NCBI RefSeq assembly: GCF_038900055.1
Contig: NZ_JBBMQM010000001.1
Span: forward strand, 1,240,001-1,304,000
Length of the DNA stretch: 64,000 nucleotides
Direction: 5' to 3'
Origin: Henriciella sp. AS95
Lineage (GTDB): Bacteria; Pseudomonadota; Alphaproteobacteria; Caulobacterales; Hyphomonadaceae
Position numbers and translations under genes: made by a program. The notes beneath the pieces are model-generated. The model made no database searches. It was not told the origin of the DNA and worked only from the letters and a program-made list of their open reading frames with translations. Below are positions 18,689 through 21,132 of the stretch, piece after piece (positions within the stretch are counted from its first letter, which is position 1; the number at the start of each line of letters is the position of its first letter).

Positions 18689-19432
18689 ATGCAGCCTGAG
18701 AGCCCCTCTCTTCCCGCGCGCCGTTCCCGTAAGGCGCTGTGGTTCGGCCTCGCGCTCGGCGCGGCGGTCATTCTTCTGTTCATTCTCGGCAAGACGGGCG
18801 TGCTCGGCTCGCTGGAGCAGTTTATCGGCCGGATGCAGGATCTTGCCGATACGCCTTGGGCGCTGCCTGCGGTTATCGCGCTATTTTGTGGGGCTGCCTT
18901 TGTCGGCTTTCCGCAGTTCGGGCTGATTGGCGCGGCCGTCGTCGCATTCGGTCCTGTTTACGGTGCGCTTTACTCGTGGATTGCGACCCTCGTGTCTGGT
19001 GCGATTACGTTCTGGCTGGGGCGGTTCAGCGGAGAGGCCGCTATCGCGCGCCTGTCTGGTCGCCGGACCCAGAAATTCACTGAGTTTGTTTCCAAGAACG
19101 CTTTCGCGGCAAGCGCCATCGTGCGCAATGTTCCGACTGGCCCATTCCTGATCGTGAACATGGCTTTCGGCGCCGTTCGTGCCAGATTCATTGCATTTTT
19201 TTTGGGAATGGCGGTGGGTATTATCCCTAAAATCCTGCTGGTCACCTTTGCGGGCCAAAGCCTGATGGCGGCCATAAAGGGGTCACCGCTTCTTGCGCTG
19301 GGGCTTGCGCTGGCCGCCGGTGTCGTTTTTGGCGCCGTCTGGCTCTATGCCCGCCAGCGTCGACGGGCGGGCAAGATTGTTGCGGTTGACGTGGTTGAAT
19401 CGGTTGACACGCGGCGTGAGAAATCTGATTAG
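18689..19432 (+). CDS. TVP38/TMEM64-like (VTT/DedA superfamily) membrane protein
   Basis: A 247-residue protein with an N-terminal helix (about 15-35) and the SNARE-associated/VTT core. GFPQFGLIGAAVVAFGPVYGALYSWIATLVSG is followed by FWLGRFSG, IVRNVPTGPFLIVNMAFGAVRARFIAFFLG and a C-terminal helix with a basic tail. Members of this superfamily are proposed or shown to be lipid scramblases or transporters. No specific substrate can be assigned. The gene ends only eight bases before the leuA leader peptide, so the leuA promoter must lie within its last codons. Confidence 0.85.
   Translation: MQPESPSLPARRSRKALWFGLALGAAVILLFILGKTGVLGSLEQFIGRMQDLADTPWALPAVIALFCGAAFVGFPQFGLIGAAVVAFGPVYGALYSWIATLVSGAITFWLGRFSGEAAIARLSGRRTQKFTEFVSKNAFAASAIVRNVPTGPFLIVNMAFGAVRARFIAFFLGMAVGIIPKILLVTFAGQSLMAAIKGSPLLALGLALAAGVVFGAVWLYARQRRRAGKIVAVDVVESVDTRREKSD
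19404..19431 (+). promoter_or_regulatory. Predicted sigma70-type promoter of the leuA leader
   Basis: TTGACA at 19404-19409, a perfect -35 box, is followed 16 bases later by TGATTA (19426-19431) as a plausible -10 box. Transcription would start around 19437-19440, at or next to the ATG of the leader peptide. The leader therefore may be leaderless, as described for the trp leader of Sinorhizobium meliloti. Confidence 0.5.
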
Positions 19433-19439
19433 TCTGCTT

Positions 19440-19517
19440 ATGCGCAAGAAATTGCCCCTGCTGTCGCTATCTAACCTGCTGCTTATCGGCCCCTGGCCGG
19501 TCGCCGCCGGACACTAG
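19440..19517 (+). CDS. Leucine-rich leader peptide of leuA (putative attenuator)
   Basis: A 25-codon reading frame, ATG to TAG, with seven Leu codons. They are dense at residues 5-15 (LPLLSLSNLLL), then IGPWPVAAGH ends the peptide. It ends 79 bases before leuA, the committed leucine-pathway gene. No ribosome site precedes it. Ribosome stalling at Leu codons 13-15 when charged tRNA-Leu is scarce would cover the 5' arm of the hairpin at 19490-19539, the logic of classical attenuation. Leader-peptide control of amino acid operons is well known. The assignment here rests on position and composition alone. Confidence 0.75.
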   Translation: MRKKLPLLSLSNLLLIGPWPVAAGH

Positions 19518-19539
19518 TTGTCTGGCGCCTGGTCAGGGG
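19490..19539 (+). promoter_or_regulatory. Stem-loop overlapping the end of the leuA leader peptide
   Basis: The inner stem CGCCGGACA (19505-19513) pairs with TGTCTGGCG (19519-19527) around a five-base loop that contains the leader stop codon. An outer stem CCCCTGGCC (19490-19498) pairs with GGTCAGGGG (19531-19539). A stalled or terminating ribosome would prevent parts of this pairing. No T tract follows before leuA, so either translation or Rho-dependent termination is controlled, or the true terminator pairing is different. Confidence 0.6.
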
Positions 19540-19596
19540 AACGCTTCAAGCCTCGTACACACCGTACCAGCCCCCAAGTTTCCAACAGGTCAGACC

Positions 19597-21132
19597 ATGA
19601 CGACAGATAAAGACAGAATCCTTATTTTTGATACTACCATGCGCGACGGCGAACAGTCGCCCGGCGCCTCCATGACGCACAATGAAAAGCTGGATCTCGC
19701 CGACCTGCTCGAAACCATGGGCGTGGATGTCATCGAGGCCGGTTTCCCGGCGTCTTCACAGGGCGATTTTGCCGCTGTGCAGGAGATTGCCCGCCGATCC
19801 AAATCCTCGGTGATTACGGGACTTGCCCGCTCCACGCCCGGTGACATTGACCGTTGCGGTGAAGCTGTGCGCGCCGCTGCCCGCCCGCGCATCCATACCT
19901 TCATTTCGACCAGCCCGGTCCACATGAAGCACAAGCTGAAAATGGGCCCGAATGCCGTGCTTGAAGCGGTTGGCCGCTCTGTTGCCCAAGCGCGTAATCT
20001 GGTCGATGACGTGGAATGGAGCGCCGAAGACGCAACGCGGACCGAGTTCGAATTTCTCTGCAAATGTATCGATGCGGCCATCACGTCCGGGGCGACCACA
20101 ATCAATGTGCCCGACACAGTCGGCTACACGCATCCTGATGAGTATGGCGCGCTGATCCGTAGCTTGCGGGAGAATATCCCGAACTCCGACAAGGTGGTCT
20201 GGTCAACGCACTGCCACAATGATCTGGGGCTTGCCGTGGCCAATTCGATTGCCGGGGCTGCGAACGGCGCACGCCAGATCGAGTGCACAATAAACGGTCT
20301 CGGCGAGCGGGCAGGGAATGCCTCACTCGAAGAGGTTGTCATGGCCTTCAAGGTGCGCGGCGACAGCCTGCCATTTGAAACGGGTATCGACACGACCCGT
20401 CTTGCGCGAGCTAGCCAGATGGTCAGCCGGATTACTGGTTTTCCGATCCAGTACAACAAGGCCATCGTCGGCAAGAACGCGTTCGCGCATGAAAGCGGCA
20501 TCCACCAGGATGGCATGCTGAAGAACACCGAGACCTATGAGATCATGAAGCCGGAAGACGTCGGCGTCTCGAAGTCTTCGCTGGTCATGGGCAAGCTGTC
20601 CGGGCGCAATGCCTTCCGCGACAAGCTGCAGTCTCTGGGGTATGAGCTCGATCCGGAGTCGCTGAACGAGGCTTTCAAGCGGTTCAAGGCGCTCGCCGAC
20701 AAGAAAAAGCACGTCTTCGACGATGACATTCTGGCCCTGGTCGATGACCAGCTGTCCGCCATGGGAGAGCGGGTTGCTTTCAAGCGCCTGCGCGTCGTGG
20801 CTGGGTCCGAAGGCCCTCAGACCGCCGATCTTACGCTGATTGTTGATGGTGAAGAGAGCGCTGCGAGCTGCGAAGGCAATGGTCCGGTTGATGCGGTCTT
20901 CATCGCCATCCGGTCCATCGTGAAACATGACGCCAAGCTGGATCTCTATCAGGTGCACGCGGTGACAGGTGGCACCGATGCCCAGGCAGAGGTGAGTGTG
21001 CGGCTCAAGGGCGAAGGCATCATGGCTGTGGGGCGGGCTTCCGATCCCGATACGCTCGTCGCGAGCGCCAAGGCCTATATCCACGCGCTCAACAAGCTTG
21101 AAGCGCGTCGGATGAAGCGCATGGCGGCCTGA
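19597..21132 (+). CDS. leuA: 2-Isopropylmalate synthase
   Basis: The 511-residue enzyme condenses acetyl-CoA with 2-ketoisovalerate in the first committed step of leucine synthesis. FDTTMRDGEQSPGASMT is the N-terminal signature with the catalytic Arg-Asp, HCHNDLGLAVANS carries the metal His residues, and GLGERAGNASLEEVVM follows. HESGIHQDGMLK begins the subdomain linker, and the last 120 or so residues form the leucine-binding regulatory domain, so feedback inhibition is expected in addition to leader control. Start ATG 19597 lies behind CAGGTCAGACC, a modest ribosome site. Confidence 0.97.
   Translation: MTTDKDRILIFDTTMRDGEQSPGASMTHNEKLDLADLLETMGVDVIEAGFPASSQGDFAAVQEIARRSKSSVITGLARSTPGDIDRCGEAVRAAARPRIHTFISTSPVHMKHKLKMGPNAVLEAVGRSVAQARNLVDDVEWSAEDATRTEFEFLCKCIDAAITSGATTINVPDTVGYTHPDEYGALIRSLRENIPNSDKVVWSTHCHNDLGLAVANSIAGAANGARQIECTINGLGERAGNASLEEVVMAFKVRGDSLPFETGIDTTRLARASQMVSRITGFPIQYNKAIVGKNAFAHESGIHQDGMLKNTETYEIMKPEDVGVSKSSLVMGKLSGRNAFRDKLQSLGYELDPESLNEAFKRFKALADKKKHVFDDDILALVDDQLSAMGERVAFKRLRVVAGSEGPQTADLTLIVDGEESAASCEGNGPVDAVFIAIRSIVKHDAKLDLYQVHAVTGGTDAQAEVSVRLKGEGIMAVGRASDPDTLVASAKAYIHALNKLEARRMKRMAA

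Follow-up and report, generated by a model that had tools for sequence, protein, structure and literature searches.

The leuA leader region of Henriciella

The window, meaning the whole 64,000-nucleotide stretch of Henriciella DNA that was analyzed, carries leuA, the gene for 2-isopropylmalate synthase, at positions 19597 to 21132 of its plus strand. The product is a bacterial-type isopropylmalate synthase that scores above the cut-offs of the NCBIfam models NF002087 and TIGR00973. The nearest named LeuA among the contigs fetched, a set that may lack the window's closest records, is that of Henriciella pelagia, at 97% identity. A short leader precedes leuA, and the gene upstream of that leader encodes a VTT-domain protein. 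On the same strand, a probable leader promoter occupies 19404 to 19432, with TTGACA at 19404 to 19409, a 17-base spacer, and GATTAG at 19427 to 19432; a generic sigma-70 promoter scan of the window did not report it. TTGAC stands 35 or 36 bases 5' of the leader ATG, as picked by a codon rule, in 47 of 48 Hyphomonadaceae-type loci, against an expectation of about 0.006 per locus. In these loci, the conserved TTGAC falls within the terminal part of the gene upstream. Judged by this spacing, leader transcription would start at or near the leader ATG, and the leader mRNA may be leaderless, beginning at its own ATG.

The leader peptide open reading frame (ORF; 19440 to 19517, plus strand) opens with the ATG at 19440, contains 25 codons, seven of them for leucine, and closes with a TAG at 19515 to 19517, leaving 79 bases before the leuA start at 19597. 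Its translation is MRKKLPLLSLSNLLLIGPWPVAAGH, and its relatives are enriched both in Leu codons and in rare ones. The earlier note had described exactly this frame, together with a hairpin over its last codons and stop, and both are present. All of the hairpin's parts lie on the plus strand. Helix P1, found by folding and by covariation, has 11 pairs in the predicted fold, joining 19490 to 19500 with 19529 to 19539 (CUGGUCAGGGG). Hairpin P2 (19503 to 19528), found by folding, consists of eight pairs (19506 to 19513 with 19519 to 19526) plus two more (19503 to 19504 with 19527 to 19528); in this predicted fold, the leader stop codon sits within the P2 loop. In the alignment, P2 differs between clades. 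The segment from 19482 to 19545 has a folding energy of -37.3 kcal/mol versus -24.75 for shuffled sequences (z = -3.98), with 0 of 200 shuffles as stable, and the longer segment from 19433 to 19610 gives a z score of -3.05 versus shuffles.

Four further plus-strand features complete the region. The conserved core, CUUAUCGGCCCCUGG in the window and CUUANNNGCCCCU as RNA, spans 19482 to 19496. Before it lies the Leu-codon stretch UCUAACCUGCUG (19470 to 19481), a predicted anti-Shine-Dalgarno (anti-SD) segment of which 10 of 12 positions pair with 19583 to 19594 in the MFE fold. The 3' arm of P1/P2 (19520 to 19542) is a second candidate anti-SD segment, with a predicted duplex to 19578 to 19595 of -20.7 kcal/mol. 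The leuA translation initiation region extends from 19578 to 19596 and includes the SD sequence CAGG at 19586 to 19589.

Conservation of the core and distribution of the element

Regions upstream of leuA were gathered from relatives (matches in 43 of 61 genomes; the set used comprised 30 loci, among them the window's own) and from further genome contigs (the best 80 loci). Three paralogues (L002 to L004) and a locus without upstream DNA (L109) were omitted, identical regions were merged, and minus-strand loci were reoriented, giving 100 distinct regions. The motif CTTANNNGCCCCT occurs in 93 of them and its CTA form in one, so that 94 of 100 carry the core. At the RNA level the core is CUUANNNGCCCCU or, once, its CUAA variant, and helix P1 arises by pairing of its CCCCU with an AGGGG farther 3'; AGGGG is found downstream of the core in 93 of the 94 core-bearing regions. 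Among the six misses, L063, L064, and L068 have CCTCT instead; it is matched by AGAGG in L063 and L068, and L064 keeps AGGGG, giving a U-G pair. The other three (L065, L087, and L091) lack the motif and were left out of later tests.

The alignment of relatives that the earlier note had proposed as a check revealed conserved Leu codons and a covarying P1. Over 56 aligned sequences, P1 was paired in 97.0% of 560 cells, 48 cells had changed on both sides, and registers slid from the true one were paired in at most 59.5%. None of 500 shuffles reached the covariation score; the number of P1 pairs with double changes, five, was reached by 8 of 500. RNAalifold recovered P1 in the consensus of all five clusters. 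Conservation extends beyond the needs of pairing: among 176 regions, CUUA, a G before P1, CCCCU, and an A after AGGGG are conserved (19482 to 19489 and 19540 in the window), and this surplus leaves room for a core that is itself recognized. In L056, L057, L060, L061, L112, and most Caulobacteraceae loci, a GGGG lying close to CUUA on its 5' side could pair with GCCCC in a local hairpin and compete with P1. An alternative partner considered for AGGGG is a CCCCU located upstream in the leaders (LPL) of Hyphomonadaceae.

These 176 distinct regions comprise 94 obtained through LeuA similarity and 82 obtained through a covariance model. The eight codons before the conserved CUU contain a mean of 3.9 Leu codons versus 0.57 expected (175 regions), about a sevenfold excess. 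The mean is 4.3 in the 94 LeuA-similarity regions and 3.4 in the model-found regions, whose Leu counts are not independent of the model, which includes 24 bases before CUU. Usage within the leader is also shifted relative to leuA, with CTT at 36.8% versus 7.0%, CTA at 10.9% versus 0.9%, and CTG at 24.8% versus 56.0% of Leu codons. In 104 of the 176 regions, the leader stops directly after the CCC codon of the core, which places the stop codon within P1. In the remaining 72 it extends two to nine codons further, and 69 of those are Hyphomonadaceae-type or Caulobacteraceae loci.

The covariance model, which the earlier note had also suggested, was searched with strict filters against 387 alphaproteobacterial genomes at least 90% complete. 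It matched 87 of them, the window's genome included, once each, and every match lay upstream of a LeuA-type gene on the same strand. The model also serves to mark leuA across Alphaproteobacteria. The exact CTTANNNGCCCCT occurs in 70 of the matches and a variant in 17. The window's LeuA type, at E ≤ 1e-120, is found in 195 of the 387 genomes of the same draw; the element is therefore common but not universal, as seen with strict filters. A draw of 397 genomes from the phylum gave 86 matches, all in the same class or nearer, the share of genomes drawn from outside the class not being given. A plasmid search gave no matches.

Eighty-two of the downstream LeuA proteins are 59 to 100% identical to that of the window, and five (at L146, L156, L164, L172, and L179) only 26 to 29%. 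Of these five distant genes, two were scanned, as partial ORFs; both pass NF002991, the model of the other isopropylmalate synthase family, and fall below the leuA_yeast cut-off. The element therefore precedes two non-orthologous LeuA families. At two loci, L134 (motif at 1525) and L169, leuA lies about 445 to 460 bases downstream of the element and CCUCU replaces CCCCU, with AGAGG as its partner in L134. A small cupin gene stands between element and leuA in L134 and may be the first regulated gene there.

Predicted pairing with the leuA SD region and the proposed switch

RNAalifold recovered a stem between the leader and the SD region in none of the five clade clusters; one cluster gave a stem with its 3' side 40 to 47 bases 5' of the ATG. 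Because the consensus folds yielded no such stem, swap and chimera tests were used, the folding tests covering 165 to 168 of the 176 regions. For the Leu-codon stretch, predicted SD:leader pairing in the window was 0.566 versus 0.362, 0.126, and 0.402 in chimera, synonymous, and codon-order controls, respectively. Over 167 regions, the native mean of 0.445 compares with 0.329, 0.255, and 0.328 for the same controls, and native pairing was above its control in 106, 124, and 116 of the 167. The excess is centered on positions -10/-11 of leuA and, in the leader, on positions -8 to -1 counted back from the conserved CUU. With relatedness ignored, the leader:SD duplex swap test favored native partners in 112 of 165 regions (P = 2.1e-9), in 11 of 16 of the C18 group (P = 0.017), and in 13 of 21 of Hyphomonas and allies (P = 0.0097); Henriciella gave a weak result (16 of 26, P = 0.068), Caulobacteraceae no signal (11 of 20, P = 0.25). 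When a stalled ribosome was modeled so that its A site lay two codons 5' of the conserved CUU, mean SD:leader pairing over 168 regions fell from 0.445 to 0.186. The mean opening of the SD rose only from 0.384 to 0.503, a modest change because local pairing grows. In the window, the unpaired fraction of the SD went from 0.41 to 0.63. A ribosome modeled at the stop codon also opened the SD slightly (0.425 versus 0.384, all regions).

The 3' arm of P1/P2 gave its signal in Caulobacterales, which we take, in the GTDB sense, to be the window's order. With relatedness ignored, native arm:SD duplexes there exceeded swaps in 55 of 68 loci (P = 1.5e-9) and exceeded shuffled SDs in 58 of 68; by group, native exceeded swaps in 19 of 26 Henriciella loci (P = 0.001), in 16 of 21 of Hyphomonas and allies (P = 0.01), and in 12 of 21 Caulobacteraceae (P = 0.052). 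Where the stop lies within P1 (95 loci), no clear arm:SD signal emerged, whether against swaps (54 of 95, P = 0.083) or shuffles (50 of 95, P = 0.38). The automatic P1 end is wrong at L069, L078, and L110, and by the same flag probably at L089 and L147; the first three entered the arm:SD folding and swap tests with that wrong end. In Caulobacteraceae the arm is mostly CUUCGCGG against CCGCGAAG, with partner changes to CGUCGCGG/CCGCGACG and UUUCGCGG/CCGCGAAA and with L074 as an exception. Aligned, arm and SD were 83.6% paired, with three pairs changed on both sides and a score reached by 19 of 500 shuffles; a slide of +3 scored above the true register (0.133 versus 0.128), and P2 in that alignment has little covariation support. 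In Henriciella (P = 0.0002) and Caulobacteraceae (P = 0.016), though not in Hyphomonas (P = 0.21), modeling a terminating ribosome gave arm:SD pairing above that of across-group chimeras; it was above that of within-group chimeras in no group. In the window, arm:SD pairing with the modeled ribosome at the stop was 0.007, and the sequestering fold alone was no better than shuffles (z = -0.45). For the window, folding favors the Leu-codon stretch as the segment that would hold the SD, and the swap test favors the arm. Both designs predict the same output, in which a stall on Leu codons would turn leuA on.

On the strength of comparison and folding models, we think it probable that the region is a leucine-responsive translational attenuator of leuA and belongs to an element spread over Alphaproteobacteria. 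The comparison supplies the leader, its bias toward Leu and rare codons, P1, the missing U tract, the excess of SD complementarity, and the linkage to leuA; from these we infer that ribosomes stall and that a switch operates, as well as the direction in which it works and the signal it reads. A ribosome would translate the short leader rich in rare Leu codons and, when charged tRNA-Leu is scarce, stall on those codons just 5' of P1. It would then cover the stretch of Leu codons, whose predicted partner at other times is the SD region of leuA, and P1/P2 would remain folded during the stall, keeping the 3' arm off the SD, so that leuA would be translated. When leucine is plentiful, the ribosome would reach the stop codon and depart, and the SD would be held by the Leu-codon stretch in most lineages; in Caulobacterales the P1/P2 3' arm would hold it as well. 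Of the leucine attenuator in the earlier note, the comparison supports the leucine leader peptide, the conserved, covarying stem before leuA, and the lack of an intrinsic terminator. Control of translation start, which that note had offered as an alternative, is where the evidence now leans, through SD complementarity predicted computationally to be above controls.

Competing explanations and related leaders

The translational attenuators of the erm and cat genes work by a ribosome that stalls on a leader and so frees the SD of the next gene. The same logic is proposed here for leuA; the genes, signals, and structures differ, and no homology is claimed. The enterobacterial Leu leader is a Leu-codon leader peptide before leuA with rare Leu codons and an intrinsic terminator. 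A Leu-codon peptide thus precedes leuA in both, but no similarity to its Rfam model was detected. Rfam 15, which includes the Leu leader and T-box models, gave one chance match far below the gathering score between 19300 and 19800 of the window, and 11 leuA loci had no match at E ≤ 1; a known Rfam family was therefore rejected as the identity of the element.

Close in design is the LEU element of Actinobacteria, where, according to the part of its description available to us, an ORF with a run of Leu codons precedes leuA, a base stem pairs Leu codons with the leuA SD, and a terminator is absent (Seliverstov et al. 2005, PMC1262725). The element is described there as a pseudoknot, and when codon mutants did not behave as classical attenuation would require, its authors came to favor a binding protein (PMC1262725). 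The window element likewise has a Leu-codon leader ORF before leuA and no terminator, and a candidate counterpart of the base stem is seen in aggregate, weakly in Henriciella and not in Caulobacteraceae. The LEU element belongs to another phylum and is described as a pseudoknot, and it is likened to the leuA element here by its published description only. In the parts available of Corbino 2005, Weinberg 2010, and Schrader 2014, there is no mention of leuA (those of Schrader show only ilvIH), and those of a Sinorhizobium Ribo-seq paper mention only leuC and trp leaders. The literature surveyed, seen in part and without Vitreschak et al. 2004, where an earlier prediction would most likely stand, describes no alphaproteobacterial leuA leader element and reports no leucine response of a leuA leader. 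A broader proposal, which we consider rather unlikely, is that this is a class-wide, undescribed translation-start element of leuA, preceding two non-orthologous LeuA families, whose near-invariant CUUAnCnG and CCCCU/AGGGG core is recognized by a stalled ribosome or a dedicated factor and which shares, by descent or convergence, the Leu-codon anti-SD logic of the actinobacterial element.

Rho-dependent transcription attenuation, a distinctly less probable but serious competitor of translational attenuation, would have Rho load between P1 and leuA, where the RNA is rich in C and poor in G, once the leader is completed, with termination prevented by a ribosome stalled on the Leu codons or by a structure which that ribosome favors. 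In the window, C makes up 42% and G 13% of the bases that follow P1; of 174 regions, 131 have more C than G there, and the lack of an intrinsic terminator suits this reading. It leaves unexplained, however, the excess complementarity of leader or arm to the SD, and the C richness is not conserved as sequence, C not being above G in 43 of the 174.

That a protein or small molecule binds the conserved core (CUUAnCnG with CCCCU/AGGGG), the leader peptide being secondary, seems to us unlikely. Sequence conservation far in excess of pairing needs would suit such binding, as would the protein proposed by the authors of the actinobacterial LEU element, in the part of that paper available (PMC1262725). 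Yet the strong bias toward Leu and rare Leu codons lies right at the core, as ribosome sensing predicts. We know of no factor for this core.

Far more doubtful is an action of the peptide itself, whether its GPWP end were to arrest the ribosome or to work in trans. A precedent is peTrpL of Sinorhizobium, a leader peptide that has a function in its own right (PMC10117765). A Pro followed by a Trp is common to Hyphomonadaceae and Caulobacteraceae loci, and the codon after CCC is TGG in 68 of 94 loci, TGT in 3, and a stop in 23, so that the peptide ends before the Trp position in those 23 and, in the wider set, in 104 of 176. The in-frame core codons of the 94 loci are CTT or CTA (CTA once), ANN, NGC, and CCC. 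The second residue varies among S, T, I, R, M, and N and the third among G, R, S, and C over the fixed nucleotides CUU-A..-.GC-CCC-U; since nucleotides are constant where residues vary, the object selected is mainly RNA. The GPWP ending thus appears to reflect conserved RNA more than a conserved peptide. The idea in the earlier note that the end GPWPVAAGH has a role of its own finds no footing here, its VAAGH part also differing among relatives.

Classical attenuation through an intrinsic terminator, for which the leader peptide, regulated codons, and strong hairpin would speak, can be set aside as barely credible, since T content after P1 is at background although U tracts are present in most of the relatives' ilvI leaders that were examined. 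Five or more T in the eight bases after P1 occur in 9 of 176 regions, no excess over a background of 5.0%, and a terminator scan of the window found none at P1. The absence of a U tract that the earlier note had remarked on therefore holds in the window and in its relatives.

Translational attenuation at leuA can be set beside the attenuators before ilvI(H) of Alphaproteobacteria, which likewise combine a leader of branched-chain codons with a hairpin in the same genomes but finish with a GC stem followed by a U tract. An ilvIH attenuator of Caulobacter appears in a figure legend of Schrader 2014 (PMC4117421), which we saw in part. Among 30 ilvI leaders of relatives, a GC stem with U tract was found by script in 10 of 10 motif-bearing leaders and by visual inspection in at least 12 of the remaining 20. 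These bacteria therefore do use terminators, which makes the absence at leuA informative. If our reading is true, these cells would possess, besides the ilvI attenuator, a second design in the form of a ribosome-sensing switch working through the SD and not through a terminator, and this would offer a clean setting for studying why the outputs of two branched-chain leaders differ. The ilvI leader of the window's genome ends in CTTATTAGCCCGTGA; an end motif common to ilvI and leuA leaders was considered and, as only 10 of the 30 ilvI leaders fit and other endings occur, treated as chance. At this ilvI locus, which lies at contig position 1237327, roughly 2.7 kb ahead of the window, the short leader ORF is LRKQKVVVLISP, and it comes with a stem and U tract resembling a terminator, so that two attenuator designs lie a few genes apart in the one genome.
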